Of a stretch of 64,000 nucleotides of DNA, positions 3,435 through 49,077 are shown piece by piece; within the stretch, counting starts at the first letter, position 1, and each line of letters starts with the position of its first letter. The notes under the pieces are model-generated. The model ran no database searches. It had not been told where the DNA came from and saw nothing but the letters and a program-made list of their open reading frames with translations. The stretch is from Prostheceraeus crozeri (taxonomy: Eukaryota; Platyhelminthes; Polycladida; Euryleptidae), in the NCBI GenBank assembly GCA_907163375.1, contig CAJQUW010000891.1:124001-188000 (forward strand), in the 5' to 3' direction. Made by a program: the position numbers and the translations under genes.

Positions 3435-5035
3435 TTGTGTTTCAGTGAAACCTGGTCAGTTTCAGCGGGTTCGTGTAAATTCAATTATAGTTCTATAGAA
3501 GTCAATGCCAGTACAAATAATAAACAATACTGGGAAATTTCATGTTGGAAAACTTCTTTTGAATAATTTCATCAATATAGGCTGTAAATAACATTGATAT
3601 TATGTATGTGACAAGTCACACATAATTTATATTTCAAAATATCTTTCCTATGATTATTTGTTCTGTAGCAAGTCTCTTTAGCAAAATTGTTCAGTTAGGA
3701 ATGTTTTGTCAGTATGATTGGTTCCTAATTGGACCAATAATGAGACGAATTTGTAAAAATAACGATTTTCACTTCATCATTTCATTATTTTGGAAGCCCA
3801 CAATACGGCCATTACTGTTGGACTCGCACATAAGTCACGCGGCGGCTCCGTGCGAACGGCTCGCACGAAACAGAATATTGAGCGCGTTGTTGATGCCGTC
3901 GAACAGCAACCGGAGACTTCACAGCGTAGACTATCAGCGCAGCTAAACCTTTCTGTATCCACCATTAACCGGATTCTTCACGAACGCGGTTTTCATCCCT
4001 ATCGGCTGCGCCATCGTCACTCCCTTAACGATGAAGACTTTGAGTCTCGCGTTGACTTCGCATCGGAGATCCTTCAACACCTTGAACAAGATCCCGATAT
4101 CTTGAAGCGCATTATTTTCTGACGAAGCTAACTTTCATGTGAACGGCTGGAACTACCGGTTTTATGCTCAAGAAAATCCTGGATTTGTTACCGATATGCC
4201 ACTCAATTCGCCGAAAATCATTATGTGGTGCGGTGTCTCGTGGAAGCAGATTTTCGGTCTGTTTATCTTCAAGGACGAGAATGGTGCAGGAACCACAGTA
4301 AACGGATCAAACTATCGAGCAATGATCAAAGATTTCTTTCTTCCTCAATTGCAAAATAATGAATTTTTAAATGGTTCTCTGTTTTTCCAACAAGATGGAG
4401 CTACGCCGCACACCGCACGCGAAACTATCGACCTTCTGCGTGATGAGTTTTCCAACAATGTGATTTCTCGAAGAGGTGACATTCTTTGGCCAGCGCGTAG
4501 TCCGGATCTAACGCCTCTAGACTTCTGGCTGTGGGGAACGCTAAAACACAGAGTGTATTCCACAAATATTTGCGATGTGCACCATTTGGAGCAGCGTTTG
4601 CGAGAGGAAATCGACTCCATTTCGACTGAAGAGCGACAGGCAGCACTTCTCGCATTCAAGGCACGACTCCATACCGTGTTGGAAGTTAGCGGACGCCATG
4701 TTGAATAAAATAGCTTCTGTTGTTCCATTACTTTAAGCAATAAATTTTTACATTTAATTTCCATAGTTTTCATTGTTTTATTCATAAATCGTGACGATAA
4801 ATCGAACTCATAAATCATAATAAAAACGACGTTCATAAATCGAACGAAGGCTGAAGAGCGCTCTCCAAATGAGAGCGATATCTATGGTGAATGTGTCGAT
4901 AAAAGTAAATAAAAGCATACGGACATAAAATTACCAGGTATTGTCTTTCGTTTGCAAAAAGTTCCGGTTTAACATCTTCATCATGGGTCAAATGGGAATC
5001 GATTCAAATCAGCCAGGTTTGACTGAAACACCCTG
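3435..5035 (+). mobile_element. Mariner-like transposon with DD41D transposase, copy A (defective)
   Basis: The left end at 3435 follows a TA and reads TTGTGTTTCAGTGAAACCTGG. The right end, read inward from 5035, is CAGGGTGTTTCAGTCAAACC and is followed by a TA at 5036-5037. The ends match over about 20 bases with two differences and a 2-base gap at the tip. The transposase relic fills 3790-4708. The right TA abuts the inverted repeat of the MITE that starts at 5037, so this element inserted next to or into the tip of that MITE. Confidence 0.75.
3790..4708 (+). pseudogene. DD41D mariner-like transposase, frameshifted
   Basis: The protein is a Tc1/mariner-superfamily transposase. The N-terminal part (3790-4122) has a helix-turn-helix segment (QRRLSAQLNLSVSTINRIL). 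The catalytic core follows: IIFSDEANF carries the first Asp, FFQQDGATPHTA the second, and WPARSPDLTPLDFWLW the third. I count 41 residues between the second and third Asp, the spacing of the rosa-type DD41D group. Two bases appear to be missing at about 4120, so that FSDEAN reads as F-stop and the frame resumes at 4121-4139. No ATG precedes the conserved N-terminus: the frame at 3790 opens with TTG and is open upstream, so the original start is lost or lies further 5'. The copy cannot make an intact transposase. Confidence 0.85.
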
Positions 5036-5036
5036 T

Positions 5037-5114
5037 AGTTAGCCTCATCTCGTACAGAAGGGTCAAGGATTCTGATCAGATTTCTGTCCAGATGCTATAT
5101 TATAGAAGTCCATG
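5037..5114 (+). repeat. MITE terminal inverted repeat, left
   Basis: This 78-bp arm starts near AGCCTCATCTCGTA and ends AGAAGTCCATG. It pairs in inverted orientation with 12047-12125, and a third copy lies at 13523-13590. The internal block TTTCTGTCCAGATGC is identical in both arms. Removing the nested retroelement leaves a MITE of about 270 bp with ~78-bp arms. Its superfamily is unknown. Confidence 0.75.
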
Positions 5115-5149
5115 TCTAGGCACAGATGTCTAATGTCCTAAAATCCTAA

Positions 5150-6376
5150 ATGTCCAATTTAGATAAAACGATCGAATTCGTGCTAGAACAATCGCGCACT
5201 ATTATAGAAGAGACAGTACCGGCAAATGTTAAGGCTATCTCCTTGCCCTTACCAAACCGTTTGTCTTCTGGTGATGGCTTAAACAACAACGACATACACA
5301 TACATGCAGATCTTCTGGAATTGCAGGAAAAGTCATTTAATTCTCAGCATCAGGAAGAGCTAGCGGCTTTGACAGTCTGTGATAGTACATGCAATGCTCC
5401 CAGTCATGAACTGAGACATGGGAGTGAACAACTTGCAATCAGACGTGACAGAGATAGTCATGACCACCATACGATGCCCACCTGTACTTTCTCTTACTGC
5501 ATTTGTAATTCTGTTGAATCCAATGATTTATTGCAGTGTAGTAACTGTAAAGAATGGATACACTTAGAGTGTGTTGGACATCGACCACATCAGCGATCAG
5601 CAATACTCACGTTATTCTGCACTAATTGTCTGAATTCTAGAAAAGACTTGGAAAATGTATATCGACGGAATCCGTTTATGAAATTGCGGGTTACGGAATT
5701 ACGTCAAGAGCTAGAGCTAAGAAACATGCCTACAGAGGGAAAAGAAGTATTTTAATGGACAGACTGCTTTCAGTGACTAAAATTCACTCAGATTTTGTTC
5801 TACACAAGTCCAAGTCTGATTCTCTTTGTGATGTGAGTAACATTGATGCATCACCGGAGGTAGCCATCAGTAAAATACGTCAAGGCTTTACAAATCGTGG
5901 GCGAATTTTAAAGAGAGTTCCAAAAGCTAGTAGAATACAAGCTGCTACTTTGCTTACAAAATTATTGAATGACGTCATCAAATTTAATGATACAACATCA
6001 TGGGCGAAACTTTTTAGTTTTGCACGCCTGTGCCTGGCACAGCCAAAGAGAGCTGGGAAGAACGCAAAGTCATTGGCTTCGATTGTAGACCGACGTATAT
6101 CTGATTTTGACAGCTTAGTCTGTGATGATCAGATCAACCAGCGAAATCGGAAACAGCATAGACCAAGGAAAAATAAGACTGACCGTGAGAAGTTAGCTGC
6201 TTTGGTTTCCGAAAAGATCTCTGAGGGAGACATCAAAGGAGCTGTTAGAATTGCCTCTTCAGATAAAACTATGGCGCCGTTCAATGATGCGACAACTGAA
6301 AAATTAAAAGCAAAACATTTACCAGCTGCTGAACGTGAGCATGATATAATAACTGAGTCTGATGATGCGTCTGAAT
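5150..6376 (+). pseudogene. Retroelement ORF, 5' part: PHD finger and SAP-like segment
   Basis: The ATG at 5150 follows an in-frame TAA at 5147-5149, which fixes the start. Residues ~115-165 form a C4HC3 PHD finger: CICNS, LLQCSNCKEW, HLECVGH, then LFCTNC. PHD fingers usually bind histone tails. Residues ~175-205 (LRVTELRQELELRNMPTEGK) look like a SAP domain, a short DNA-binding helix pair. The frame shifts in the A run near 5740. The stop at 5753-5755 overlaps the next ATG as TAATG, but one extra A would continue the SAP pattern directly into that frame, so a 1-base deletion is likelier than a designed two-ORF junction. The second frame (5755 onward) continues with KVPKASR, LLTKLL and GAVRIASSDKTMAP, a pre-RT segment I have seen with this RT group. 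It is cut at 6376 by the hAT insertion. Confidence 0.7.
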
Positions 6377-9300
6377 CAGGGTTGGCAGGTTTTTCCCAGT
6401 GGTGGTAAATACCAGTGGTAAAAACCGGTAAGTACCGTCCTGGGAAAAACTGTGAAAATGGGAAAAAGTGGTCAATATTGGGAAAAACTTAAGTAAGAAG
6501 GCAAACATGAATGAAGTATGCAGTGCATCAATTTCTCATCAATATGCAGTTCAGGCTTACCTCTTTTGGTCTCTTCTAACATTACTAATAAATAAATAAA
6601 AACATATAAATTTTGTGTAATTGGTAAAATTACAGGTGACTTGTCCTACTTTTGAAATAAAAAAAACAAAACGAAATTCAAAATTTATTAATTGATTTTT
6701 TGAGTTAAAGCCAATAAGCTCATATGCTATATTACTCTATACATGCAAATATCACATCTAGCTCGCAGCTTCACGTTCCCTCAAATTCTATTAGTCATTC
6801 GCAATTCAGGAGGAAAATGCAGATATGCAAGTAGTGTAACGATAAGCCAATTCTTTGAATTATGACGCTATATAGTGTACCTGAAATAACGATGGGTAGG
6901 CCTACTCAATTGACGATTTACTTAGAATGCTATTAATTGAAAATTCATAATCTTTGATTACAGTTAAACATAGGGCCAAATCTTAATCAATTAATACAAT
7001 TTTCCATGCAAAAAGCAAAACGAAGTGAGTTACACAATCAATCTTTAATTACAGGACGAAACCTTGCCCATTACAAAACGATTTTCCATAGTCATATACT
7101 GTAAAACATAAGACGTAGGTTTTCACTACTTGAAAGAATGCATTCAAACACTAAATGCTAGTAATAAATTGAAAACTAGATAATCAAATATAGTCCTACT
7201 TGTTTACATGTGATTAACAATCCGCTATCAAAGATCCTTTCAAATACCGATTACATGACACCAATTTCGATGCTTTTTCCACACTCATTCTATTTCTGAG
7301 TTTTGTTTGCACAAGCCCCAATCCGGAGAAAAGTCGTTCAATTGACGCTGAACTGGCTGGCAGAAGCATCATTTTCAAAGCAAGATCACAGAAGTTGTCG
7401 GGTACCATTCTGGTCGACTTCAGGCATTTCCACCAGGAAATAGGATCCATGTTGCTTACACATTCATCTGAGAACAATGATTTGGGAAACGGCGAGTCTT
7501 GCGCATGTAATTTATATATAAGAGGTAAAGCCGTTGGTAATAATTCCTTCAATTTGGATCTGCTCCTTTCTTGATCCTCGGCTGAAAGCTGACGGCCGTT
7601 GTAGCGTGGATGTAACATGTTCGCTAAAATATGCGTGGAATCAATGGCTTGGTCAAGCCTTTTCTTTACAAATACTTTGTTTGTTGCTAATTCATCACAC
7701 TTATACAGGGAATTCCAAGTCTCACAAGCATCAGCAATATTGGCGTTGTCGCTTTGTAAGAAGTCCAACGAGCGGGAAATAGGGTATAACTTTTCGAACA
7801 CACTTTTCACTTCCCGATTGAAGTCGTTATCATTTATTGTAGTCGCTATTCTACGATCGATCAAAGTTTCATTTTCAGCAACGATCATAAGTAGAAACGG
7901 TCTGTTTGTCATATACGTTTGTATACAGGATAATTGACTGTTCCATCTGGTACATCCCGGTAGTTGAGGCTTGACGGCTCCTTGTGTCTTGTACTCTTCA
8001 AGCAAACTATTTGGGACATGATGGTTTCTGAAGAATTTATTGACATCTGTGATTCTATTCAACACATCAGTTGGCGAAACATCTTGACCGAGAAGGTTGA
8101 GTAGATGTGATGAACAACCGTAGACGAACAATGAATTGTCTTTGGCTTGTATTTCGTCTCTCATTACCTGCATTTTCTTCTCATTGTCCGTAACAACGCC
8201 AATCACAGTGCAGCCGAATTTCGAGAGAGCCAGTGAAATAGCTTCTTCTGCCAAAGAAGCGCAGTAAGCCCCGGTCTTTCGCGTGACTCCAACTTCAATA
8301 GAAGACAAGAAAAACGATGACTTGCCGTCATGAACACAATGTGCAATCACTGGTGAATTGTGGATATCGCTCCAACCATCTTGTACGAGGGTTACATATT
8401 TCCCGTCCAGTTCACTCTTGATGTTTCCTGTGATGGTATCGTAAGTCTTATCCAGTAATGTCGAAGAGAGTGCTTTTCGTTTGGGCGGTTGATATCCTGG
8501 TCTCAACATTTCAGTGAGACGAACAAACTCGGGATGTTCCGCAACATTAAACGGAATACTACAAGCGTAAAAGAAGTTAGCCACCTGTTGGTCCAATTTT
8601 TCTTTCATATTCTCTGATGTACGTGTTGCAAAATCAGAAATGCTACTTTGAATTCTTCTCTTTTTGAAAACTTGACATTCCGAATCGTCGTGTATTTGAG
8701 CACTCGGTTTAGAGGGAAGAGATTCATTGTCATTACTCGTATCACCACTACGCGAAGGATGGTCGACGTCGGCGGTAGTAGAATTTTTACATTTCTGAAG
8801 ATGTTTTCTGAGTCTGTCTGCCTTAGCGCTAACATCAGTTTGGCACGAACGGCATCTAGCACTTCGTATCCTCCCGTTTTCTTCGATGGTCTGAAAGTCT
8901 TTCCACACTGGGTCGGAAGGTCTTCCTCCAGTTCCAACAGACATAACCAAGTTCTATGTATAATTGACACGAACGCAGCACTGATATATTCAGCTTCTCC
9001 GAACAGTCTTCTTTACAACAGCAAAGGTACAGGCAGAATGAATATTTTGTTCATCTGTTCGATCACTATACTGTCGTCACTCGTCAACAGTTACCAATGG
9101 TGATAACGTGAAATCAGCGCTATTAATAGTCTCTGACAATCCCATAAAATCTTATCCTTCCATGCGTTAAGAGAGGATTGACAGCTGCACGCAGACATCA
9201 AATAGATGACGGACAACTCGAGCAGTTCCTAAGAATTGATTAAGGTCACGTTTGTAGAACTTACCATGCATATAAATCAGGCAGTTTTTCTCAATACGAA

Positions 9301-9600
9301 GTACGATCGATAAAACTATACATATAAAACCATACATATATGATCTCATCATACTTATCAATGAAAACTATGCTTAATGCGTTACTAATTATCTTCCTGA
9401 CATCATACATATACACAACATTCCATAAACCTAACAATAATAGGCATTTTTTCTAATCAACCACGTTCTCCCAATAATGTACCACTTTTTCCCAGTTTAC
9501 TACCAGTTTTTCCCGGTATTTACCACTTTTTCCCGGTTTTAACACTTTTTCCCACCTGCCGTGGGTAAAACTAGTTTTTCCCACAAAATTGCCAACCCTG
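6377..9600 (-). mobile_element. hAT transposon inserted in the retroelement ORF
   Basis: The left end CAGGGTTGGCA at 6377 and the inverted right end at 9600 match perfectly over 11 bp. A perfect 8-bp duplication, GTCTGAAT, flanks the element at 6369-6376 and 9601-9608. Both subterminal regions carry many copies of GGGAAAAA or TGGTAAATACC, likely transposase-binding sites. One long minus-strand transposase frame lies inside. The clean duplication and open frame suggest a fairly recent insertion. Outside the gene, 6420-7210 and 8971-9480 show only AT-rich non-coding sequence. Confidence 0.95.
7214..8950 (-). CDS. hAT-family transposase, 578 aa, uninterrupted
   Basis: The enzyme cuts and pastes the surrounding element. 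Residues ~12-55 form a BED-type zinc finger (VWKDF, CRSC, HLQKC). The catalytic core shows LVQDGWSD with the first Asp, VVTDNEKK with the second, and YGCSSHLLNL, a common hAT Cys/His motif. The C-terminal dimerisation region carries DPISWWK, then LLPASSASIERLFSGLG, whose Glu is the third acidic residue. The end of the protein (VSCNRYL) is at the usual place. Length is normal for a compact hAT transposase. The start at 8950 gives the whole BED finger; a second Met two codons in is equally possible. No stop or frameshift is visible, so it may be functional, although intron loss or subtle missense changes cannot be excluded. Confidence 0.9.
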   Translation of the reverse strand: MVMSVGTGGRPSDPVWKDFQTIEENGRIRSARCRSCQTDVSAKADRLRKHLQKCKNSTTADVDHPSRSGDTSNDNESLPSKPSAQIHDDSECQVFKKRRIQSSISDFATRTSENMKEKLDQQVANFFYACSIPFNVAEHPEFVRLTEMLRPGYQPPKRKALSSTLLDKTYDTITGNIKSELDGKYVTLVQDGWSDIHNSPVIAHCVHDGKSSFFLSSIEVGVTRKTGAYCASLAEEAISLALSKFGCTVIGVVTDNEKKMQVMRDEIQAKDNSLFVYGCSSHLLNLLGQDVSPTDVLNRITDVNKFFRNHHVPNSLLEEYKTQGAVKPQLPGCTRWNSQLSCIQTYMTNRPFLLMIVAENETLIDRRIATTINDNDFNREVKSVFEKLYPISRSLDFLQSDNANIADACETWNSLYKCDELATNKVFVKKRLDQAIDSTHILANMLHPRYNGRQLSAEDQERSRSKLKELLPTALPLIYKLHAQDSPFPKSLFSDECVSNMDPISWWKCLKSTRMVPDNFCDLALKMMLLPASSASIERLFSGLGLVQTKLRNRMSVEKASKLVSCNRYLKGSLIADC

Positions 9601-9608
9601 GTCTGAAT

Positions 9609-11811
9609 GCATGCCCCTATTGATGACCGTGGAGATTGTGAAAAGTGCAATACAAAAATTTCCGAATGGTTCTTCTGGAGGTCCGGACGGTTTTCGACCC
9701 CATCACCTGAAGGATCTTACTTCCAGTTGGCTTGGTGAACATTCATCCAGATTGCATGACGCCCTCTCCCGATTTTCGCAACTAGTTGTGAGTGGAAATA
9801 TTCCTCAAAATATATGTGCAATATTCTTTGGTGCATCTCTGTGTGCTTTAGCCAAGTCAGACGGTGGTGTTCGTCCTATTGCCGTTGGCTTCACTTTGCG
9901 TCGCATGATTGGTAAAATATGCAATCTCTCTGTAATTGATAGGATGGGTGATTTCCTTCGTCCTCGTCAACTTGGTTTTGGGACTCAGTTGGGGGCTGAA
10001 GCCGCTGTACACGCCGCCCGTGACTACATTTCTGGTTTGACAAGCGAAGAAGTAGTCTTGAAAATTGACTTCAAAAATGCCTTCAACTCTGTCCGACGAG
10101 ACGTAGTAATGAAATGTGTTAAGGAATCCATTCCAGAAATTTTTCACTTTGTTTATCAATGCTAATCTATGCGTCTAGTCTTCTATATATGGATGAAATA
10201 ATAGAATCAGCAGAAGGCGTGCAGCAAGGAGATCCACTCGGTCCGTTGCTATTTTGCTTGGCTATTCATGACCTTGTGAAAGATGGAGTATCAGATTTGA
10301 ATATTTGGTATCTTGATGATGGCACGATGGGTGGAAAAGTATCCGGTGTTCTATCAGATTTTGTCCGTATCCTTGAAAAAGGAAATAGTCTTGGATTGGT
10401 TGTCAATCCTCATAAATGTGAACTCATAGTCAGTGACATTGTCAAATGCAAAGATTCAATTGCTTCATTTCTTTCAATAGCTCCTGACATCAAGGTTTTG
10501 GAGGCGAAAGATGGCACTCTTTTAGGAGCACCAATTGGTGTAGATTCAATCAAACCAGCTATGCTGAAAAAATTAGAAGAATTAGATCGCCTGAATTCGC
10601 GTCTAATGGATTTAGATGCTCATGATGCCCTGTATTTGCTCAGACATTGTTTTGCGATTCCGAAGTTGCTGTATCTTTTGAGGACGACTCCCTGCTTCCA
10701 TCATCCTGACATATTGGATCGGTATGACTCTACTCTCCGTCATTCATTGGAAAATATTCTTAATTGTCGATTAAATGATTCGTCTTGGACTCAAGCGTCT
10801 TTACCGGTGGCAGTGGGGGGATTAGGTGTTCGAAGTGCTGCACAGCTATCATTACCTGCCTTCTTGGCTTCAGCGTGTAGTACTAGAACGCTCTGCTTTG
10901 CTCTTCTGCCCTATCATGATGAAGACTACTCAAGTCCTGTGTTTAATGAGGCATATGCTAAGTGGAAAGCTCTCGTGAACTTTGACTCATCAGATATTCC
11001 TGACAAACAGCGTCTTTGGGACAAACCAATTTTACAGAACATACACCAACGAATGATTGACTCCTTTAAGACTGTTGCTGGCAAAGCTCGCTTTCTTGCT
11101 GTGTCATCCAAGTATTCCAGTGTCTGGCTAAATGCTCTACCTGTAACATCACTTGGACTAAGACTGACTAATTCGCAATTACGAATTGCATGCGCGCTAC
11201 GATTGGGCATTCAAGTATGTCATCCGCATATTTGTGTGTGTGGGGAAGAAGTGGACCCCTCTGGTGTACATGGTTTGAGGTGTAAAAGAAGTGCTGGAAG
11301 ATCTGATCGTCATTATGAAGCAAATGACCTGATCCGACGAGCTCTTATTTCAGGAGGTGTCCCTGCCATACTTGAACCTCCGGGCGTTTCACGAACAGAC
11401 GGCAAGCGCCCCAACGGTTTAACAATGATTCCGTGGAAGGCTGGCAAATGTGCTGTATGGGATTTTACCTGCCGTGACACTTTGTCCCCAACTTATGTGG
11501 AATCCTCAGCTTCGGGCTCAGGAAAGGCGGCGACGGCAGCTGAACATCGTAAGCTTGCTAAATATTCGAACTTGTCGCCTACATATGAAGTCATTCCCAT
11601 ATGTATCGAAACTTTTGGGGCTTGGGGACCTTCTGCTATATCTTTCGTCCGTGAGGTTGGCAGGAGGGTTGAAGCGGCTACTGGGGATCCAAGATCCACA
11701 TCTTTTTTGATGCAGAGACTCAGCATGGCTGTTCAGAGGGGGAATGCTGCCTTTGTTCTGGCTACCTTACCATCTGCCAGGGACTTATTTGAAATTTTTG
11801 ATTTTTGTTAG
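9609..11811 (+). pseudogene. Retroelement ORF, 3' part: reverse transcriptase and restriction-like endonuclease
   Basis: The coding frame continues exactly from codon position 6376 across the hAT insertion, so the insertion broke an open frame. RT motifs: GGPDGFRPHHLKD, then LDFKNAFNSVRRD-like motif A at ~10065-10100, then motif B GVQQGDPLGPLLF, then motif C WYLDDG, then NPHKCELI. A stop at 10162 is bypassed by the next frame from 10159, which marks a small frame break. After the RT come CVCGEEVDPSGVHGLRC (Cys/His motif) and a domain with GKRPNGLT and VWDFT, matching a PD-(D/E)XK endonuclease in which the first Asp is Asn. The domain ends SMAVQRGNAAF. The 550-codon frame from 10159 is otherwise clean. 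Reverse transcription primed at a nicked target is the expected role. Confidence 0.75.
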
Positions 11812-12046
11812 ATCTTGTTCAATTAATTTTCGTAGGTGATAAGGACTTAATTTCTGAGCTAAGGTAGTTTGTGTTTGCAGATCATTTTCTTGTATTTTTG
11901 GTATGTACGCATTTCTCTTGAAATAAAATGATATAGGCACAGATGTAGGAGTCCATGGATTAATGGAAGACCAGAGATATCTGCACGAAACTATGCGTTC
12001 TACCGGGTCTACCATACTACACTGCTATGAATATCATCCCGGAAAC

Positions 12047-12125
12047 CATGGACTTCTATAATAATGCATCTGGACAGAAATCTGAACAGATATCATTGAC
12101 CCCTCTATACAAAATGAGGCTGACT
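12047..12125 (-). repeat. MITE terminal inverted repeat, right
   Basis: This is the inverted partner of 5037-5114, matching at about 85% by eye, including AGATTTCTGTCCAGATGC and TATAGAAGTCCATG when read on the minus strand. It closes the MITE into which the retroelement jumped. Between the retroelement's 3' duplication (11946) and this arm lie about 100 bp of MITE interior. Confidence 0.75.
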
Positions 12126-13522
12126 ATTTGAATCGATGTCATTCATGCAGAAGTTATGTGCATTGTATTCTTGTTATTCTTGCTCTGCGGGCGTTGTTAA
12201 TTAGTGTTTTTCAAATCATCAGCGATGTTTGTGGAGAAAGGAAAATGCTGAGCACATGCTCTGTGTTTGTGTACCGGTATAAGAATGACAGTAAATTTAA
12301 AGACTCTCCACCTACATTTCATTGCTTATCTTTGAAAAATAAGCCATAGAATCTATCGATAAAGAACAATGTGATTTACGCCGATGACCAAACCAAAATT
12401 ACTCTTCTTTGGTGGCAAAGTTAATACATTCTCACAATTTTCTTGCTCAGGAAGAAGAAGAAGAAATTTCAATCGATATGGAAGCATAGCCCTCAAATGT
12501 GAAATGAAAACTGACTTCGTTCGTCGCCTCAAATTAAACTAAAAAAATGTGTGAATACGAGTAAGACTATACTCGCACTTAATGAATTTCGGAGCGACAG
12601 AAATCTGATTGCAGTATATTCTCCTGATCTCATCCTTGCAGCGATCGAAGAATTCAACACAATAAAGATCATGAACTTTTTTTTATCTTATTTTACACAG
12701 TGATTTTAGACCCTACATGGATAATGCATATCTCATAGGATGGATCATGAAATTTCATTAAGTGATGCAAAAATAGTACATGTTTGCAGTGCTATTACAT
12801 TATCTTCTATCACACAATCGAAATGAGCACCCTGTATGGATATGCTATTTCTGAATAATATTTATAAAATAAAGAGCTCGATTCTATCCTGGTGCATGTT
12901 GCATCAATATTCTGAGCTTCTATGCGCCACTATGGCATTAAAGGCAAAGCAACAAGCAGATGTAGTGTTTTCTTTGGTGTTGGTTCTTCGAAAGTTCCCG
13001 AATGAATAAAGTCATTTCAGGAAGTAAAACCAATAACCAATCCACAAATCAACGTAGCACTTTGTGTTATTTGATGTGCTGCTTTACTTGGAAAAGGGAA
13101 GATTTGACCTAATATTGGTAAAAAAGTGTAAACCTGAAATGCCAGTTTGTTTCCAAAGGATTAATTATTTGACTTTGATTATTGATTAACTCTCTTTTAA
13201 GATCTTGCGTGTTCGTAAATAATTTCTGTAAATAGCACTCCAATGTTTTATTTAATTCAAAAAATAGTAGCCAGCAGATATGTGAATGACATTGATTGAT
13301 ACATGAATAAGTTTCCTCAGATAAGTCATTTGCCAATGTGCAAAAGGCGACTGAAAATTCTGATCAGAGTCTCACTAATGGGCAAAGTCAGACTGAAAAA
13401 GAGACTATAGAAATTATACTTCAAAATTGATGTAAATCGGCATGATCTTCCAGATATAGTTATACATTATCACGAAAATTAATCAACCGATACATGCCTA
13501 AATGCATCAATATGAAATACAA
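12126..13522. other. Intergenic, nothing recognised
   Basis: AT-rich sequence with short unconvincing open frames only. An ATCGATTCAAAT word at about 12126-12137 (minus strand) also occurs at 4999-5010 inside mariner copy A, which may be chance or a trace of another repeat. Confidence 0.5.
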
Positions 13523-13590
13523 TATCAGCCTCATCTCGTATACGTGCTAGTTTAGATATCTGTCCAGATGCTATATTACAGAAGTCCATG
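13523..13590 (+). repeat. Solo copy of the MITE terminal repeat
   Basis: It matches 5037-5114 in the same orientation (CAGCCTCATCTCGTA, then TCTGTCCAGATGCTATATTA, then GAAGTCCATG) with an internal deletion of about 9 bases. No inverted partner is visible nearby, so it is either a truncated MITE or a separate solo end. Confidence 0.7.
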
Positions 13591-21171: not shown

Positions 21172-23174
21172 GTGAGTCAGTTTCCATGTATGGCATTATG
21201 GATTCTATCCTTCGCTTAGTAATTGATAAGCATATTGCATGCTTTAACTTGGTGTGTGGTCAAATAGGAACGCCGGCACGAACTAAGGGCATGTTTTGCA
21301 TCGAATTCTCGCTCACTCACTCATGACCATAGCCTCTATGGAAGCCGTTGGTGCACCCATTGAAGCACAGAAGATCTCTATTTCTACCTGTCGTCGACTC
21401 CTCTCACGCGCCCGATTTCCGTTCCTCCAGACCACTCCAGAATTCTAGCAGGCAAAAAAGGAGGTCTGAGTCATTTGTAAGGACATATATCCGATCAATG
21501 AAAACGTATAGGTGAAATTGCGCTACATAGGTACACTGTAGAGGAGGCTCACCTGTGCGTTTTCTGAAATCGGATATGCCTGCATCTTGTCAGACACAGT
21601 TAAAATGCTTCTATTTCATTTTAGTCGGTATCCAAGAAATTATTTATAGCCTACGTTTGGCGAAAGCCCTGTTGCAGATTGCATCTCCAGAATTTCAGCA
21701 AGCAGTATTCAGCTTCGCCAAATAAACGACGAATTACTCAATGCAGATTAAATCGGTTACAAATTATGGCATGGTAGCGATGGACTTCTAATTCATGCTA
21801 TTGGCCAATCAGGGCAGCGAATGAAGATTTTGAGATGGAAAATGTAACGCATTTTTGATTCTGGTATTATGGAAGCGTGCTTAGGCTGTTGTATATCGAA
21901 TGTTTCATCAATCACAAAAAGCCATGAAATAAGGCAGAACACACGTCCATTCTATAATTCATATTGCTGATGCGCAAGATTATTTTAGCATGCTAGATCA
22001 ATGTAGTGACAGTGCAGGCGAAAGATGTTCTTCTTCCATCTATTCTGCAATTATGCATCACCTAGAAAACCTAGTGCGCAACAATTCAGTACTGTTTGTA
22101 GATACTGGAAAATCTCCCGGATGCATGATCCTGAACATAGATGATTGAAAATTTGATCATTCAGAAATGAAGAGACTATGTTAAAAAATGACTAAAAGAA
22201 AAAAAGAAATTTTCAATAGCCTATCGAATCTTAAGATTTTCTGATATACTGCAAGCCGAAAAAGGGTAGACAATATCTATGAGTGTGGTGTAGTTGCGCG
22301 TTTGGCCATGGCCGACCTATATATTTCATAAAAAACCACACAGCTCGATCTATCGGCTGGCTATCACCTCCCGCGATGTTCCTTGGTTAACACCAACAAT
22401 AGCGGTTCACTGGCGAGTTGAGTGTGCCATCAGGGTAAACCACAGAATAAGATTCATCTGCACGTGCCATCGGTTTCCTAGAAAGGAAGAATCATATCTA
22501 ACCTTAGTATCGAAATGGCACATCACAGAATTAGACAACTTGCTCCTTCTCGAATGGATAATTCGTGCATCGCTTGCTATTGGAAATGGCAAACAATGAG
22601 CTTTCAGTAGAGGAGCCACAGCCAGTGATAGAGGCGTGCGTGCTGTGATATCACTTCGCACACACCAAAACACACATTGTCTAGCTAAAATTCGATTCAG
22701 TGTATGCACTATACAGTGAGGAATGCCGAGGAGAGGATGTGAAAACATCAAGTGAACTAATTTTCGTACGCCTGCTACTTTTCGTAATAATGATCGGAAG
22801 GTATTCTCCTCTGATAAACAATTCTCCAATGTCTTCTATCATTTTCTGCTTGCCATGGTCATTCCCCCATTTCCATCTGACAAAATGCATTTTTCCGTGA
22901 GACGTAATACTGAAGCTAATGCAGCAATTGTCACCCAAACTAACCGAAAACAAATATAGGAAAAGTTCAGACAGGAAAAACTGATTTTATATTCGATTGT
23001 GATATATTAACACTTTCCATCCCCGGAAATACGGCTGAACGAAGTAATAATGTGTATTCAAAGTTGATTGACATATCAATGAACGCATTCAGTAAACCTC
23101 TGCTGCTGATAATAATTGATTTTATAGTGGTTTCAATATCATTCTATGTAATACTTAGTTCTATCACGTTTCAG
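21172..23174 (+). other. Kinase intron 1 (GT-AG, 2003 bp)
   Basis: Donor GTGAGT at 21172 and acceptor TCACGTTTCAG ending at 23174 give a phase-1 intron. Joining the exons yields a continuous N-terminal domain. The interior has no recognisable gene or transposon. Confidence 0.75.
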
Positions 23175-23926
23175 ATGCGTATAATGCTGGAGCTCTCCTT
23201 CCTCGATGTGCTGACATCGATTGTTACTCAGTTTTTATGGACTACTTCGATGCTGTGATCCGAGATTATCACAAAATATCCACCAATGCAATCACTCATC
23301 CTGCCTCTGATTTCGGCAATCTGAACAGTCTTCCTTTTTGTCATCTTGACCCTGCCAAAAAATATATTGTTTCCACGCGTGTCCGTGTCGGACGAACTGT
23401 TGAAGGATTTGCATTTGCGCCTTTGATTACCAAAGAGGATCGTATTAGATTGGAACAACAGATTGCCGACGCTTTAAAGAGCATGACTGGGGAACATGAA
23501 GGCATCTATTACCCACTGACAGGCATGCAGAAGCATGTGCAAAAACAGTTGATTGATGACCATTTTCTTTTTCGTGACGATGAGCATGTATTGAGAGATG
23601 CTGGAGGTTATCGGGATTGGCCCAGTGGTCGTGGTATTTTCCATAATAATGATAAAACCTTCCTTGTGTGGGTGAACGAAGAGGATCACATCCGAATTAT
23701 ATCTATGGAAAAAGGAGGCGATCTGACGAAGGTCTACAAGCGATTAATTCAGGGAATTCAAAAGATGGAGAAGCAATTAAAATTTGCTCGTGACCAGAAG
23801 CTAGGATTTCTGACATTTTGTCCTTCCAATCTTGGTACAACGATGCGTGCATCAGTTCACCTGCGGATACCATTCCTGTCACAGCTTCCAAACTTCAAGG
23901 ACATCTGCGAACAATATTCTTTACAG
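23175..23926 (+). CDS. Phosphagen kinase (arginine kinase-like), second coding exon
   Basis: It encodes ~250 residues: the end of the N-terminal domain (AGALLPRCADIDCYSVFMDY) and most of the catalytic domain. Diagnostic motifs are STRVRVGRT (nucleotide-phosphate Arg residues), YYPLTGM, LIDDHFLFRDDEH, WPSGRGIFHN, LVWVNEEDHIRIISM (catalytic Glu in NEEDH), LGFLTFCPSNLGTTMRASVH (reactive Cys and Arg). The exon ends EQYSLQ before GTAATT at 23927, in phase 0, exactly where the final exon of arginine kinases would begin. The guanidino-specificity loop differs from the SGVGIYAP form of arthropod enzymes, so arginine is likely but not certain as substrate. No stop or frameshift is seen. The final ~100 residues are not found in the window. 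Confidence 0.92.
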
Positions 23927-24027
23927 GTAATTTTGCCTATATTTAATCGTCGTTTTCTGTATAAGTACAGTTTCGACAAATAAAGGCTTCAGAGATAAGT
24001 AGGAACAGAATGATTAGATATTGATTT

Positions 24028-38258: not shown

Positions 38259-40254
38259 CCGTATCTGCTCTTTTTATAGCCGGGTCTCTTTTAACAGCCG
38301 GGTCTCTATTAATAGCCGGGTCATCTGCAAGGTAATGAAATAATAGCCTGGTCTCTAATAATAACCGGGTATTGAATGTTCTTTGGTGTATGATAGCGGA
38401 GTGTCAAAACTACCTACCGGCATAAACAATGAATACAGTCGCATCGATCGTGCATCACCGTGTGAATACGGTAGTCAGCGTTACTTGTCTTCAGATGTTC
38501 CCATTATAAATGAGTCACTGAAGTCACTGCTTTCCGCTAAGATACGGTACGTGTAAGCTAGTCATTTCTCCACTCGTCTCTTATCGGGCAAGTCGTCAAC
38601 ATGTGTACAAAACAGAAACGAAGAGATTTCACAATGAAAACTAAGTTATCAGCGTTAGATTATTTGAAACACCACAGTGTGGAGAACACTGCCAAAACAT
38701 TCAAAGTGGACACTAAGCAAATCAGAAATTGGAGAAAGTGCGAGGATGAAATTCGTCAATGGTCTGTTTCAGGTGGTAAAGCGTTGAAACGTCGACGTCT
38801 TGAAGGCGGTGGCCGTAAAGTGGGTAACTCGATTTTGGAGGAGAAGTTGAAGAACTTGATCATTTCAAGGCGAGCAGAGAGACTTCGAGTTTCCCGAAAA
38901 TCAATCCAAAGGGAAGCTTTAAGACTACATTCTGATCTGAAAGAAAATATGTGCGACGATTTACAAGCGTTTTCTGCAAGTGACGGATGGCTCCAAAAGT
39001 TTTTACTACGGAACGGTTTCTGTCTTCGTATTCGAACAACTATTAGTTCGAAGCCGCCGTCTGATTGTTTAGAAAGTGACTAACTTCATACTGTATCTTC
39101 GAAAGATGGTAATCGAGAACAAATATTCTCAAAATTCTATCTACATCATGGACGAGACACCTGTCTGGATTGAACCAGTGGCAAGACAACTATCGCGACC
39201 AAAGGCGCGAAGGATGTACCGATTATGTCGACCGGACATCAAAAGATCAGAATAACAGTGATTCTAACCGCGCGAGCAGATGGCAGCAAGTGTAAACCCT
39301 ATGTTTTAATCCCAAGGCGTCGTGCCATTCCAGAACTAGAAAAAATTCGGGGTGTAGTTTTCAACTACAGCGGTGCCAGTTGGATGAATGATGAGATGAC
39401 GAGTGACTATCTACGAAATGTTATTGGACAGTTTCACTTCGGCAAAAGACTTCTGGTTTGGGATAGTTTTCGGTGCCATATTTCTCAGGCTACCAAAAAC
39501 GTATTACGAAAAATGAACATACAAACAGCGGTTATTCCTAGCGGTTGTACGGCCCTTATCCAGGCACCAAACGTTTCCTGGAATAGATCATTTAAAGTAT
39601 CAGTTCAAAAATCGTATGAAGACTGGATTTCAAAAAGTGATCACAGTATTACGAAGAATGGAAATCTGAAACCTCCAACATTCGGTGAATTTGCGATTTG
39701 GATTGACGAAGCATGGCAGGCAATACCTGTTAAACAAATTCAAGATTCCATGAAACAATGTGGTGTCACAAATGCAACTGATGGAAGCGAGGATCACCTC
39801 ATTGAGTGTCTAAAGCCTGGTAAACCATGTGGTGAAGGCGGTCTTCATCTTCTTAAATCCAAATTTGAAAGTAGCCTGAACGATCTTCAAGTTGAGATAG
39901 ACGCCCCGGTGAGCGATTCAGATGACGAAGTTGACAGTGATTGGTGTGATTCAGACGAATCTAACTGATTTCTTAGTTTCACTGCAGAATTCATCAGATG
40001 TAAATGTAGATTGTTCAAAGTTATTATGTTTCCTTTTTTATTAAGCTGCAAGATAATGATCTTAAACATGTGAATTTTTGTTTTTCTTATAAATCGAAAT
40101 TCTTCTCGGAAATTATGAATTTGGAAATTTTCACACAAATTATACAACGTAAATAATAGCCTGGTCTCTTTTAACGGCCGGATCTCCAATAATAGCCGGG
40201 TGGTACACTAAACAATGAAATAATAGCCGGGGGCTATTATTTGAGCATATACGG
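38259..40254 (+). mobile_element. pogo/Tigger-type transposon (defective)
   Basis: The ends are CCGTATCTGCTC at 38259 and its inverted partner at 40254, each next to a TA (38257-38258 and 40255-40256). Subterminal repeats of TAGCCGGGT with a TCTC spacer occur about four times on the left (38277-38372) and three times on the right (40155-40232). The transposase relic lies between them. Confidence 0.85.
38601..39968 (+). pseudogene. pogo/Tigger (DDE_1) transposase, frameshifted
   Basis: The first frame (38601-39083) has an N-terminal helix-turn-helix (SALDYLKHHSVENTAKTFKV and TKQIRNWRKCEDEI), then a CENP-B-like second DNA-binding part (SRKSIQREALRLHSDL, SASDGWLQKFLLRNGF). Frame changes follow near 39083 and 39190. 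IYIMDETPVWIEP near 39140-39175 carries the first Asp. The long frame 39225-39968 has MSTGHQKIRITVILTARADG, WMNDEMTSDYL and LLVWDSFRCHIS with the second Asp. IQAPNVSWNRSFK stands where LQPLDVSVNKPFK is usual, so the third catalytic Asp is Asn. An acidic tail (SDSDDEVDSDWC) ends the protein. It is inactive by frameshift and by the Asn. Confidence 0.85.
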
Positions 40255-40634: not shown

Positions 40635-41605
40635 TTATAAGCAATCTGAATCTTCATTGTGTTGATCTAGAGATATACTTTGGGTTGTCCTAGTAAGAGG
40701 AGGACGCAAGGGGCAGTGGTTCCGTCTTGTTGACTCACGAAAAAGGAAGCAGCTACGTAAAGGATGGTCCGTAACTGCAGCTACTTGTGAGAAAAGCCTC
40801 GGACAGTAGGATCTTGCAGTGTCCGTTAAGGGGGGGTTGAGACACATCTCCGACGAAACGAAGGGCCCTTCTTTCTAATATGACGAGTTTTTCCGAAAGA
40901 TACGAGGGCATGTTGCATATAGCAGGATAGCAGTATAACAGCAGAGACCGGATAAATGCGTTATAGGCTTTCAATATAATGCCGGTTGGGCATGCAGATA
41001 TGCGCATGAAACGCAGCACGAAGAGTCATTTCGAAGCCTTTAGGGTAATGTTTTTGATGTGCAAGTTCCATCGCATGTCGTGGGATAGAATCACGCCGAG
41101 CAGCTTCATGGACTTGACTGAAGGCAGATGTTCATACGTGGTAACTCGCTCGGGATGGAAATGAAGGGCTTTCTTGGTGATGAAGTCCATCACAGCACAT
41201 TTTCCAGGATTGACAGGGAGCCCGATGTTGTAAGACCAGCTTATGATATTGTCCCATTCCGGCTGTTGGGAATCGTCAGCGGGATGACGAATGAAATGGA
41301 GTACAGTGACGTCGTCAGCATACTTAGGCATTGTGCTGTTCGGACATCGAGGTGAAAGGCTGTCAAGAGCCATGCAAAAGAGAAGGGGACCGATGACACT
41401 GCCCTGAGGGACGCCAGAAGTCACTTCGGTCCAGTTCGAGAGTGACGAGTTCACGCGGGTCCTCTGCTTTCTGTTGCTCAAAAAGCTCGTTATCCATTGC
41501 ACAGCCTGGCTCGGAAGTTGAATGTTACCATGGCCTCTATGATAACAGAATGTGGAAGCTTGTCAAAAGCTCGACTGAAATCCACTGAAAGTAGTCGCAA
41601 TACAC
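40635..41605 (-). pseudogene. Jockey/CR1-superfamily LINE fragment
   Basis: On the minus strand, SVDFSRAFDKLPHSVI near 41600-41550 is RT motif A in another frame. The 41502-41026 frame gives WITSFLSNRKQRTRVN, then GVPQGSVIGPLLF (motif B), KYADDVTVLHF (motif C), VNPGKCAVMDF, and MKLLGVILSHDMRWNLHI. The next frame (41019-40753) has RSLLLYCYPAICNMPSYLSE and LERRALRFVGDV. It is 5'-truncated and broken at about 41022, so no working enzyme. Confidence 0.85.
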
Positions 41606-42990: not shown

Positions 42991-45900
42991 TTACTTTACT
43001 TTATGCGGCATATTCATTGCTGAACTTCGGCCGACCCATTGGAGATGGCACGCCACAGTTTTCGCTCACGCGTTGCGCAGTTCAATTCGTACATGTTGAG
43101 TCCGGTTCATTTCATGATGTTGTTGACATACTGCGTCCTGGGCCTTCCTCTGCGCCGGCTGCCCTCCATGTTGCCTTGCAGGACAGTTCTCGTCAAAAGG
43201 CATCCTCCCTCCCTGCATTGATGACCGTAGAAGGAGAGTTTCCTTTTCCGAACGTGTCGAAGTAACATAGGAGTAGTGGCCAGTTGCTCGAAGATGCTGG
43301 CATTCGTTCGGTGCTCTCTGTAATTTATGCGCAACATTCTCCTCCAGAACCACATTTCGGCAGCTTCGATGTGTTTCTCGTCTGCAGTTTTCACCGTCCA
43401 TCCTTCCGCTCCATATGATAGAATTGGCCACACAAGCGTCTTCACTAATTTCATCTTGAGCTTTGTTGGTAGTCCATAGCTTGTTCAGTCTGGTCATCTT
43501 TGCCTTAGCCATAGCTATTCTCACACGGACGTCTTCTGTGCAACTTCCATCATTTTTCTTGATAGAGCCAAGATATTTGAAACGATCAACCTCTGCAACA
43601 GTCTCAGCCCCAACTGTGATTGTGCTATCTTCGTCACGTGTTGAACCGACTCGCATTACCCTTTGTCTTTCTTGCATTTAGCTTCAGCGACCTCTCAATT
43701 CCTGCGGCATTTACCTGGTCAACCATCTCCTGCATTTCACTCATGTTCTTGGCTATCAAAGTTGTGTCATCGGCATACCTGACATTGCCTATTTGTCTGC
43801 CTCCGATATTGATGCCAGCGTTCGTAAAATCGGTTTCTCTCATGATTAGCTCAGTATACAAACTGAAAAGATGCGGTGATAGAATACATCCTTGACGCAC
43901 ACCCTTTTTGATTGGAAATTGCTTGGTTCGGTCTCCGTTCCAACGAATAACTCCTTGCTGATTGCAGTAGAGGGACTTTATCAGGTTGACGAGGTGATCA
44001 GGGAATCCAAAAGTAGACATCATATCCCAGAGCTGACCGTGGCTCACGCTGTCAAAAGTCTTGGAATAATCAATGAAAGTTATAACCGCTCCACATGACA
44101 TGTCATTAACCTTTTCAATAATGACTTGTAGGGTTGCCAACATGTTTGCGGTGCCTCTGCCAATTCGAAACCCTGCTTGTTCATCTGGGAGTTCCTGTTC
44201 GATCTTCATGCGCAGGCGGTCCAGCAGTATATTGAGGAGGACTTTGCTAGCATGCGATATAAGCGCAATGGTGCGATAATTGCCACACTCTTTGGGATTG
44301 CCAGTCTTGTTCAGTAATACGAGTTCTTGCTCTTTCCAATTGTCTGGCCAACGTTCCGTTTCCCAAATCCTCACGCAAAGCTTGTGAAGACTTTTTGTGG
44401 CAAAGTCTCCAGCGAACTTGACGAATTCCGCAGGCACATTGTCACGACCTGCAGTCTTGCACATTTTCAGTTTCTTTACCGCGTTCTGGACTTCTGCAAG
44501 CAGCGGAACAGGTTCCTTTTCTGCTGGAGGCGTAGTAACCAGCTCCTGATGAAAAACCGGTGAATTTGAACCGAAAAGCTGCTTAGCGTATTTTTCCCAA
44601 CGCTTTAGAACCTGGTTAGGTTCTATGAGGGTTAGACCTGTGGAGTCATTAATTACACTTTGTTTTTCAGTAACTGCTGGTTCAGTAAGTGCGGAGATTT
44701 TTCGAAAAAGCGCTTTGCCTTTGTGCATTCTATCGAACTCGTCGATTTCAGCGCACTGTCGTTCTAGCCAGGTTTTCTTGTCTTTACGCAGGCTTTTCTT
44801 TATCTTCTTGTTCAGCTTTTTAATCAAAAGGCTATCTGAAACACGCCGGGCTTCTCTTCGTTCCTGAATTAACTTGAGAGTCTCATTGCCAATCCAAGAA
44901 TCAGTTACTTTCCGCCTCGGGGCACGTCCTATGACATCGGTTGCAACCTCTTTTAAGGTATCAGTTATGTTTGACCAGAGATCATTCGGCTCCATCTCCG
45001 TAGTATCTGTCTCCAATAGCGCTGCAAATTGGTTGTTCGTTTCTGTTACGTATTGATCCCGGAACTCCGAATCATTCAGTTTATTCAAGTTGAAACGGAA
45101 TGGTTGACTACTTCTTTTCACACTGAATGCTTTCAATTGAACCTTTGAACGGTATCACAGTCTGCACTTGGTTTAGTTCTGGCATCAAGTACATTGTTGC
45201 GCCATTTCTTATTTGTCATCATATAATCGATTTGATTCCGGGTGCTTTGGTCTGGAGATGTCCACGTGAATCGTCGACGCTTGTGGTGGCTAAACTGCGT
45301 ATTCAAAATGCAAAGATTGTTTGCTGTAGAGAAATCTGCTAACCGTTGACCTCTCTCGTTTCGAATTCCCAAACCGAAGCGACCAATTCCAGTAGACGGT
45401 TCGGCTCCTTCACCAACCTTCGCATTGGCTGGGTTTTTGCCCATCGCTGGGCGATTTGCCCATCAGGATGCAGATCTCTCGACTCTTTACTTGTTCAACT
45501 GCTGATTGCAATTTCTCGTAGAAGAGGTCAACAACTTCATCATCGTGACTAGTTGTAGGTGCATAAACCTGTATTACTGTTGTGGGCACACGCTTGGTGC
45601 AAAACTTCACAACGAGTATTTGGTCCGAGATGGGGTTGAAACTAGTCACACTTTTCCGGGCTTTAACTTGCACTATAATTGCTACACCACTTAGGCCAGT
45701 TCGCTCCTCTGTACCACTGTACATGATAGTGCTATCCAAACAATCGAATTTACCACTTCCGCTCCACCGCGTTTCTGAGATTCCCAGAACATCCAGATTC
45801 AATACTTCGAGTTCTTTGATCAGGGCATAGAGTTTTCCTGTATCCTTCATAGTACGTACATTCCAAGTACCAATCGCTAGCTGTTTCTCTTTCAACTTCT

Positions 45901-46525
45901 TCTTTGTTTTCTTCTTATACTTGTGCTTGACAGTAGTTTGCTGACGGTCGGGTCCTACCTGTCTTCCATAGGGATGCCTACCGTACGAGGGATCAACGAG
46001 CATGGTCGAGTTCCCATGAACGTCGTTTACGTGATAACTGTAGTTGTGATTCATCTCCATAGGGTTCAGTGGCAAGATACTGCTGTGGTTTGCCATTGCC
46101 TTCCGCAGCCGTTTGAAGAGTCGGGTTCTCTGAGGGGCAGGTTTCGGAGAGTACGAAAACCGAACAAACCAGTACAACTTGCCGATGGATGCCATCAGAC
46201 GCAGAGGTTTGACCGACCAGGTCGCCGTCAGATACTGAGCAGAAGCTCCCTGGATTTGTTGTGGTTGAGTCGGAGGTTAAGCTGGTAGTTACTGATGCTT
46301 GTGGCTCTTCGATCTTCGTCGCCGCTGGTCTTCACCTTGGTTATTTAGACCAAGGCTCTTCTGGACTTTAACCGGTCCGACTCGGTGGGTTGTTTGGTTA
46401 CTATCGATGTATTCCAGGAGGCAAGACCTGTATCCCGATAGCACGACCTGCAGGAGCCACCGAGCAGGCAGTCCGAAAGGGGTTTACACCTGGACCTTTA
46501 GGACTCGTGGACGTGACAACCCAGT
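42990..46525 (-). mobile_element. Nearly full-length LINE inserted in Gypsy RT
   Basis: The Gypsy text breaks off at CACCCCTCTTCATAC (42986-43000) and resumes at TACCCCTTCATATG (46523-46536), so the CCCCT-TCATA words look like an imperfect target duplication. The LINE is on the minus strand and ends in an AAAGTAAAGTAAGTA tail at about 43011-42996. It encodes one long polyprotein split into a few frames, described next. About 300 bp beyond its first Met (46195) is probably its 5' UTR. Confidence 0.8.
43066..46195 (-). pseudogene. LINE endonuclease-reverse transcriptase, few frameshifts
   Basis: Minus strand. The N-terminus (46195-45410) has a basic run KKKTKKKLKEK, then the nuclease: IGTWNVRTMKDTGKLYALI, VLGISETRWSGSG, VIQVYAPTT. 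A 19-base local duplication at about 45424-45462 breaks the GDFN motif and shifts the frame. The nuclease resumes in 45133-45444 (IGRFGLGIRNERGQRLADF, RFTWTSPD, QIDYMM), but the catalytic SDH end reads CDTVQR. RT is one clean 500-codon frame (43634-45136): GRDNVPAEFVKF, GNYRTIALISHASKVLLN, FIDYSKTFDSVSH (motif A), GVRQGCILSPHLF (B), VRYADDTTLIA (C). The C-terminus runs through 43677-43066 (FKYLGSIKKNDGS; WPILSYGAEGWTVKTADEKH; RRRGRPRTQYVNNIM). RTE-like overall; exact clade uncertain. Confidence 0.85.
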
Positions 46526-47695: not shown

Positions 47696-48558
47696 GAAGG
47701 CCTATGGTCATGGAGCACGCGAAGCCACTGGATGCTATTTCAAGCAAGGCGAAAGTCTTCCAATGGGGACAAAGTCAACAATTGGCGTTCGAAGTTTCAA
47801 AGAAAGCTTTGGCCAACGCAGCTGTTCTCGTTCATCCACTTCCGAATGCGCCTCTTATTCTATCGACTGATGCCAGCAATATTGCCATCGGTGCAGTTCT
47901 CGAGCAAGTTTTGAAATATCAACACCAACCGATTACATTTTTCAGCAGGAAGCTTCGACAACCAGAATTGAAATACAATACATTTGATCGCAAACTTCTC
48001 GCCGTATACTTTTCAATTCGACATTTCAAGCACTTCCTCGATGATGTAGAATTCAGCATCAGAACCGATCATAGACCACTAGTGCAGGCTCCTGTCAGCC
48101 TGGTCAGCTAGGCAGCAACGGCAACTATCAGTCATAGCCGAAATGAACTGCACAGTTGAATATCTTCCGAGAAAGTCTAACCCAGTTGCAGATGCTTTAT
48201 CTCCCGTTGAAATTTCATCAATACATGCTGGAATTGATTACCCTGTAATGGCTTCTGAAACTCGAGCTTATCAAACTTCTATTACCGGGTTGAAATGGAA
48301 AGAAGCCCTTTTCGGTGATGTGGCCCTTCTATGTGACATAAGTACAGGTAGACCACGGCCATTGGTTCCCAAGAAATTTAGAAGAGAAGTCTTCGATTTA
48401 ATTCACGGAAATTCTCAACCATCTATTCGCTCATCTGTAAGACTAATCACATCGAAATTTGTGTGGCACTCTATAAAGCGCAATATTCGTCATTGGTCAC
48501 GTGCATGTCTTAATTGTCAAAGAAGCAAAGTGACTCGTCATACTGAATCAGGTACAGG
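47696..48558 (+). pseudogene. Gypsy RNase H and integrase zinc-binding region
   Basis: The frame 47704-48111 has AFEVSKKALANAAVLVHPLP, LILSTDASNIAIGAVLEQ (RNase H catalytic Asp), PITFFSRKLRQPELKYNTFD, LLAVYFSIRHFKHFL and IRTDHRPLVQA. A stop at 48109-48111 and a frame change follow. The frame 48143-48595 has VEYLPRKSNPVADALSPVE, then the integrase HHCC-type zinc finger (IHGNSQPSIRS, then CLNCQRSKVTRH). The integrase core is missing; only RRRFGHIHVD at about 49100-49130 follows the MITE. Confidence 0.85.
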
Positions 48559-49077
48559 CACAAAATTAGATTGTTTAATCGTATCACTTTGCTAGAAGTG
48601 CAAACTGATTCAAACAGATGGCACATGAAGGAACTTGATAAGTGGGCAAAAAGACATTTTTAATACCTTACAGAGATAGGAAAAATAGTCGTGCGTCGCT
48701 TGCGGGTTGCTCTGATTCCTTCAAAATGCTCCGATCGCCACGATTCCTTCAGATTCGAAGAATTCAGATCATTGCGCAAAAGTTTTCTCGATAAAGTTGG
48801 GTCCTCCGATCATTTCAAAAAAAGTTATCAGACGCATGAAAAAACGTTCACAAACTTCACTGTAGAACTTGACATCGTCTGTGTCTCTGCTGTGTGATCC
48901 GGTTGATAACAGTCACTGAAACTTTGCACAATTTGGCGTGTTTAATGTTGAACTGGCTGCTGATTGTTCGATTGCTATGGCATTTAGTCTGGAGATTGTG
49001 CCATTTCATTAACGTTACATGTTCCAATGTTTCCTTTCTAGTCAAACGGAAGAAGAGACGACCTATCTAATTCTGTG
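48559..49077. mobile_element. 519-bp MITE in the Gypsy integrase, hAT-like ends
   Basis: It is flanked by a perfect 8-bp duplication GGTACAGG at 48551-48558 and 49078-49085. Ends are CACAAAATTAGAT and, inverted, CACAGAATTAGAT. Removing it joins the integrase text on both sides. An 8-bp duplication with CA...TG ends suggests hAT mobilisation. There is no coding capacity. Confidence 0.9.

Follow-up and report, generated by a model that had tools for sequence, protein, structure and literature searches.

A stretch of 64,000 nucleotides from the genome of the polyclad flatworm Prostheceraeus crozeri (contig CAJQUW010000891.1, positions 124,001 to 188,000; hereafter the window, with positions counted from its first letter) contains, on the forward strand at 5145–11933, a copy of a non-long-terminal-repeat (non-LTR) retrotransposon with a restriction-like endonuclease (RLE). 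The element is real and is a member of a multi-copy family of RLE-type non-LTR retrotransposons. The window copy is very probably the dead remnant, truncated at its 5' end, of an element that was recently active and that encoded, in one frame, a PHD finger, a SAP domain, a conserved middle region, a reverse transcriptase (RT), a thumb/linker, a CCHC knuckle and the RLE. The combination of a PHD-SAP N-terminus with an RLE-type body is a new architecture within an already known type of retrotransposon, and two families support it.

Alignment with sister copies showed that the window copy is truncated at its 5' end and interrupted by a hAT transposon. When compared with the intact frame of one sister copy (L113), positions 5150–5743 lay in frame 2, 5737–6375 in frame 1, 9602–10162 in frame 2 and 10138–11808 in frame 1, and the four pieces showed 95–98% protein identity with that frame. 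The initial annotation had described the coding region as frame-continuous; in the window the frames run 2, 1, hAT, 2, 1, and two frameshifts together with the hAT insertion break the reading frame. The N-terminal coding part (5150–5752) encoded the PHD finger (amino acids 117–160) and the start of SAP (amino acids 176–198); a frameshift within SAP placed the remainder of this domain and the middle region in a different frame (5737–6375). Downstream of the hAT were the N-terminal half of the RT (9602–10162) and a piece (10138–11808) consisting of the C-terminal half of the RT with WYLDDG, the thumb/linker, a CX1CX9HX3C knuckle and the RLE, all on the forward strand. The nuclease motif was KRPN in the window and KRPD in all six aligned relatives. 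The stop codon and 3' untranslated region (11809–11933) terminated with AAATAAAA and then TGATA. At the 5' junction, a 15-nt filler (5130–5144, forward strand) was absent from the sister copies, and six sister alignments began at 5145.

Pfam detected the PHD finger in the N-terminal piece of the window at 27.1 bits against a cut-off of 24 (E 4.3e-6). In the PDB, the window N-terminus was matched best by PHD fingers, including those of CXXC1, ING1, and PHF2 (E 3.5e-7 to 8.3e-5). All eight PHD ligands (C4HC3) were present in both PHD-SAP families. SAP scored 19.8 bits in the frameshifted window piece, under the Pfam cut-off of 23.9, and 26.3 and 30.1 bits in L113 and another relative, respectively. 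RVT_1 matched both RT halves of the window (E 3.2e-7, 30.7 bits and E 5.9e-6, 26.6 bits; cut-off 29.6) and reached 65.8 bits in the intact frame of L113, a single protein of 1,143 amino acids with the order PHD, SAP, RT, CCHC knuckle, and RLE. The nuclease was recognized by its motif. In an end-to-end alignment of six proteins, where identity with the first was 54% or 39%, the RT motifs were common to the set and the C-terminal pattern CX1CX9HX3CX8RHX20EX10RPDX15D had the same spacing in all six relatives. The 14 Pfam families listed at E values up to 1 did not include the endonuclease/exonuclease/phosphatase family. With an RT and no LTRs, target-site duplications and 5' truncation, the element is a non-LTR retrotransposon; the knuckle, the PD-(D/E)XK-like motif and the lack of an apurinic/apyrimidinic endonuclease (APE) assign it, at the sequence level, to the RLE type. 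The domains listed in the initial annotation (PHD finger, SAP-like segment, RT, Cys/His motif, and PD-(D/E)XK-like nuclease) were all recovered, its denial of LTRs and of an apurinic-type nuclease was borne out, and the R2-like mode of action, whose enzymatic steps we infer, held up as well.

To define the family, the genome (2.05 Gb, 14,165 contigs) was searched with the RT-RLE part; 77 of 8,539 candidates were scored, and the resulting counts are a lower bound. There were at least 80 match rows, comprising the window, 21 rows at 93–98% identity and 58 more distant rows, mostly 52–59% or 44–49% identical with a few pieces at 65–81%. The sample consisted of 20 close copies, out of the 21, together with their flanks, 11 loci at 56–58% (the second family: L099–L103, L105–L109, and L112), and four at 44–47% (L133–L136). 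The second family, which also has PHD-SAP, was 54% identical to the first; L133–L136 showed 39% identity with L113 over the aligned protein and 52–56% with one another. Long open frames of 1,143 (L113), 1,049 (L101, cut by the end of the locus), and 1,021–1,056 amino acids (L133–L136) suggest that these elements were recently active.

The window copy was flanked by a 13-bp target-site duplication, TAGGCACAGATGT, at 5117–5129 and 11934–11946, as the initial annotation had reported. Of the 21 own flank pairs, including that of the window copy, 10 had exact repeats of at least 9 bp beside the ends, compared with 2 of 420 mismatched pairs. When 120-bp stretches of the window were paired at random, up to 20,000 times and skipping pairs less than 400 bp apart, 8 pairs shared an exact 13-mer. 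On these two comparisons, a chance origin of the 13-bp repeat was rejected. The initial annotation had also made its reading depend on repeats lying at the ends of other copies, and repeats of 9–14 bp lay there in the 10 of 21 copies. The clear duplications were 9–14 bp in length and unrelated in sequence between copies; those of L114 and L119 were the weaker among the ten, with repeats some way from the ends, and L130, scored as a miss in this count, had a 9–10 bp repeat when its flanks were inspected. The flanks of the 20 copies and the window copy, compared by eye, differed from one another; the targets are scattered and unrelated.

Two sister copies, L115 and L124, began at the same base approximately 300 nt upstream of the start of the window copy and had different flanks, which suggested that this base is probably the true 5' end of the family. 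The very short leader noted in the initial annotation was therefore wrong for the family. At the 3' side, similarity ended at AAATAAAA (positions 2326–2333 of the 3' piece) in 14 of 20 copies, at 2323 in L120, at 2307–2312 in L114, L122, L125, and L126, and at 2111 in L119. The shared 3' end was followed by a short tail that differed from copy to copy (3–56 nt where a duplication marks the end of the tail); such variable tails were seen in the window (11917–11933) and in L113, L115, L118, L121, L122, L124, L128, and L131. They may be flanking sequence from read-through RNAs, or untemplated addition. A run of at least six A residues occurred within the first 65 nt after the 3' end in 8 of 20 copies, and partly overlapped the duplication in L121, L128, and L131. 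In the second family, where 9 of the 11 loci were inspected at this end, there were several points at which similarity ended, and an A run came after some of them. This pattern is compatible with polyadenylated RNAs that lack a fixed 3' end having been the templates of reverse transcription.

Of the 20 close copies, 10 contained PHD-SAP, and the alignment of the other 10 began downstream of it. Both PHD and SAP were present at 5 of the 11 second-family loci. In all four distant elements (L133–L136), two Cys/His fingers occupied the place of PHD-SAP, and neither PHD nor SAP was matched there, whereas the middle region, RT, linker, knuckle, and RLE were collinear between the PHD-SAP and zinc-finger families. 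The N-terminus is thus a module, because PHD-SAP is common to two families and zinc fingers are found in four elements with otherwise the same architecture. The RT tree joined the two PHD-SAP rows (support 93/84) and placed the four zinc-finger rows together on the other side (97/99), with 100/100 support for the joint clade; taken by itself, this topology would accommodate either zinc fingers or PHD-SAP as the older front end. Since R2, Utopia, and several FoTeR proteins are described as having zinc fingers (PMC7650587, PMC4640811, PMC12857005), replacement of zinc fingers by PHD-SAP appears the likelier direction.

The proportion of synonymous differences (pS) between one sequence of each PHD-SAP family was 0.75–0.95 over the regions counted, which is saturated, and 0.77–0.95 within PHD and SAP. 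The corresponding proportion of nonsynonymous differences (pN) was 0.33 in PHD and SAP, 0.28 in the RT, and 0.20 in the knuckle plus RLE. These values indicate that the PHD-SAP N-terminus has been kept as protein by purifying selection, less tightly than the RT and RLE.

Several observations weigh against the domain assignments, the insertion mechanism or a chromatin-reading role. The PHD score fell short of the Pfam cut-off of 24 in both relatives scored, at 21.0 bits for the intact sister L113 and 13.6 bits for the second family. One second-family locus, L099, had SAP without PHD, and 5 of the 11 (L103, L105, L106, L108, and L112) had neither domain; the longest frames of L103, L106, and L112 began further downstream, which fits truncation as the cause in these three. 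The Pfam zinc-finger matches in L133–L136 were weak (E 0.06–0.3), and 11 of the 21 flank pairs had no duplication of at least 9 bp. When a profile of the six proteins was compared with R2, the RLE stretch scored -3.7 bits, and the nuclease assignment therefore rests on motif spacing and position. The tryptophan preceding the histidine ligand of the PHD finger (KEWIH in the window family), a residue that in H3K4me3 readers contributes to the methyl-lysine cage, was leucine in the second family (KDLFH), so that a conserved methyl-lysine cage was unsupported. The element's spacing also departed slightly from the SLACS/CRE pattern given in PMC12857005, with X9 for X7–8, X8 for X9–10, and X15 for X12–14.

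The element could belong to one of the RLE clades already described, most likely HERO, as an ordinary member whose N-terminus is in Repbase without a paper, and we put the chance of this only slightly below even. HERO has many families that are not target-specific (PMC4640811), and the flanks of the present family were likewise mutually unrelated. Against such a placement, the clade stood on a long branch of 1.97 changes per site in the RT tree; this tree took in R2, L1, and other LINEs (long interspersed nuclear elements) and did not resolve the joint of the clade with them, with long branches flagged. Databases of animals and some plants seem to contain many unnamed reverse transcriptase proteins that combine a WYLDDG RT with an RLE, so that the relatives with zinc fingers may be widespread. 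We found no paper describing PHD or SAP in an RLE element, which is weak evidence given that Repbase and most subscription papers were outside the search.

The PHD-SAP segment might also serve the RNA-protein particle or a protein partner site, in nuclear import or protein contacts, and have nothing to do with the choice of insertion site. This explanation has a substantial chance, though somewhat below even, and it gains from the absence of the tryptophan in the second family. It is opposed by position: PHD-SAP sits where the N-terminal fingers do, and in R2 these fingers belong to variable N-terminal domains described as DNA-recognition domains in PMC13188248, the main text of which does not mention PHD or SAP. 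The splitting of the window copy into four frame pieces might suggest that PHD-SAP lies next to the element by chance or is a piece of a host gene; this is extremely improbable and was rejected, since it occupied the same frame and place in the intact sister L113, was present in all 10 close copies aligned that far and in the second family, and kept its amino acids despite saturated synonymous sites.

Chromatin-guided target choice, which the initial annotation had raised as an inference, is still one. Tentatively, PHD-SAP might replace the reading of a DNA sequence: the PHD finger would bind nucleosomes and SAP would bind AT-rich or scaffold DNA, which would give dispersed insertion. The full proposal, that an RLE lineage swapped its zinc-finger DNA-recognition module for a PHD-SAP chromatin reader and hence inserts in a dispersed, chromatin-guided manner rather than by targeting a DNA sequence, is conceivable but doubtful. 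In this genome one RT-endonuclease body occurs with either of two interchangeable front ends, a natural pair for testing whether the N-terminus controls the insertion specificity of RLE elements and whether target-primed reverse transcription can be guided by a histone reader. Because R2 proteins are described as under development for transgene insertion, a relative that reads chromatin would be of practical interest.

The hAT DNA transposon nested in the window copy (3,224 bp, 6377–9600, reverse strand) had short terminal inverted repeats, an 8-bp duplication, GTCTGAAT, at 6369–6376 and 9601–9608, and a transposase at 7214–8953 on the reverse strand (DUF659, E 4.6e-17; Dimer_Tnp_hAT, E 4.4e-8). 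Fourteen of the 20 fetched sister copies matched both hAT-flanking pieces with an 8-nt overlap and thus carry the empty hAT site. The element itself had been inserted into a palindromic repeat resembling a miniature inverted-repeat transposable element (5036–12126), whose arms, 5036–5114 and 12047–12126, were 87.5% identical as inverted repeats. An additional partial copy of this palindromic repeat (4920–5116 and 11947–12126 in the window) was found downstream at 13554–13590. The inverted repeat 5071–5114/12047–12090 was considered as a part of the element and rejected, as it lies outside the duplication and has this further partial copy.

Elsewhere in the window, a Tc/mariner-like transposase occupied two frames at 3763–4708 (HTH_Tnp_Tc3_2, E 2e-9 in the first; no Pfam match over the cut-off in the second) and is probably decayed. 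Another LINE at 43634–46273 on the reverse strand (RVT_1, E 6e-36) is probably of the APE type because of a weak endonuclease/exonuclease/phosphatase match under the cut-off (E 3e-4), and a LINE RT remnant at 41026–41562, also on the reverse strand, showed a weak similarity of 32% over 80 amino acids to the RT of the element. Fragments of a DDE_1 transposase (39174–39968, E 3e-17) and of an integrase H2C2 zinc-binding domain (48083–48595, E 3e-11) were also present. The sole host-like gene among 10 further open reading frames scanned was an ATP:guanido phosphotransferase, arginine- or creatine-kinase-like, at 23159–23983 (E 9e-57).

Among proteins of solved structure, those of R2 were the best relatives. 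The six-protein profile matched R2 proteins best in the PDB (9nl2, 9nl3, R2Tg 9dou, and R2Bm 8gh6; E 1e-14, over the RT and thumb), followed by group II intron RTs and L1; a PDB search with a single window piece gave no significant match, and NCBIfam gave weak matches alone, chiefly to group II intron RTs. Viral contigs were searched as well: with the RT-RLE protein, three stretches matched a pattern and none was a relative; the back-translated RPD motif gave 76 loci, and the window pieces (the N-terminal half of the RT not covered) gave no match at E 0.01 by tblastn against 82 loci. R2, like the element, has a single protein that unites nucleic-acid-binding domains at the N-terminus with RT, thumb, CCHC knuckle, and RLE (PMC7650587, PMC5678591), and the RH and GxW of RLE LINEs described in PMC5678591 were found in the element. 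The two differ in the N-terminus (zinc-finger/Myb in R2, PHD-SAP in the element), in the RT motif (F/YADD in R2, WYLDDG in the element) and in target, R2 using one site in 28S ribosomal DNA whereas the flanks of the element were mutually unrelated by eye, without direct comparison with ribosomal DNA.

HERO, compared by description only, shares with the element an RLE and many non-specific families (PMC4640811). In the CRE clade (SLACS, CRE1/2, MoTeR, and FoTeR), the RLE spacing is near that of the element in the SLACS/CRE pattern, which additionally has a terminal K and Y; the described members, unlike the element, are site-specific or telomere-associated, and several FoTeR proteins have C2H2 fingers (PMC12857005). 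The zinc-finger elements L133–L136 share the collinear body and differ in the front end described above. CR1 and L2, finally, are likewise non-LTR retrotransposons with a PHD finger, there within ORF1, for which general genome targeting has been suggested; they differ from the element in their APE endonuclease and in a mostly separate ORF1, with some subgroups apparently having a single ORF (PMC4120745).

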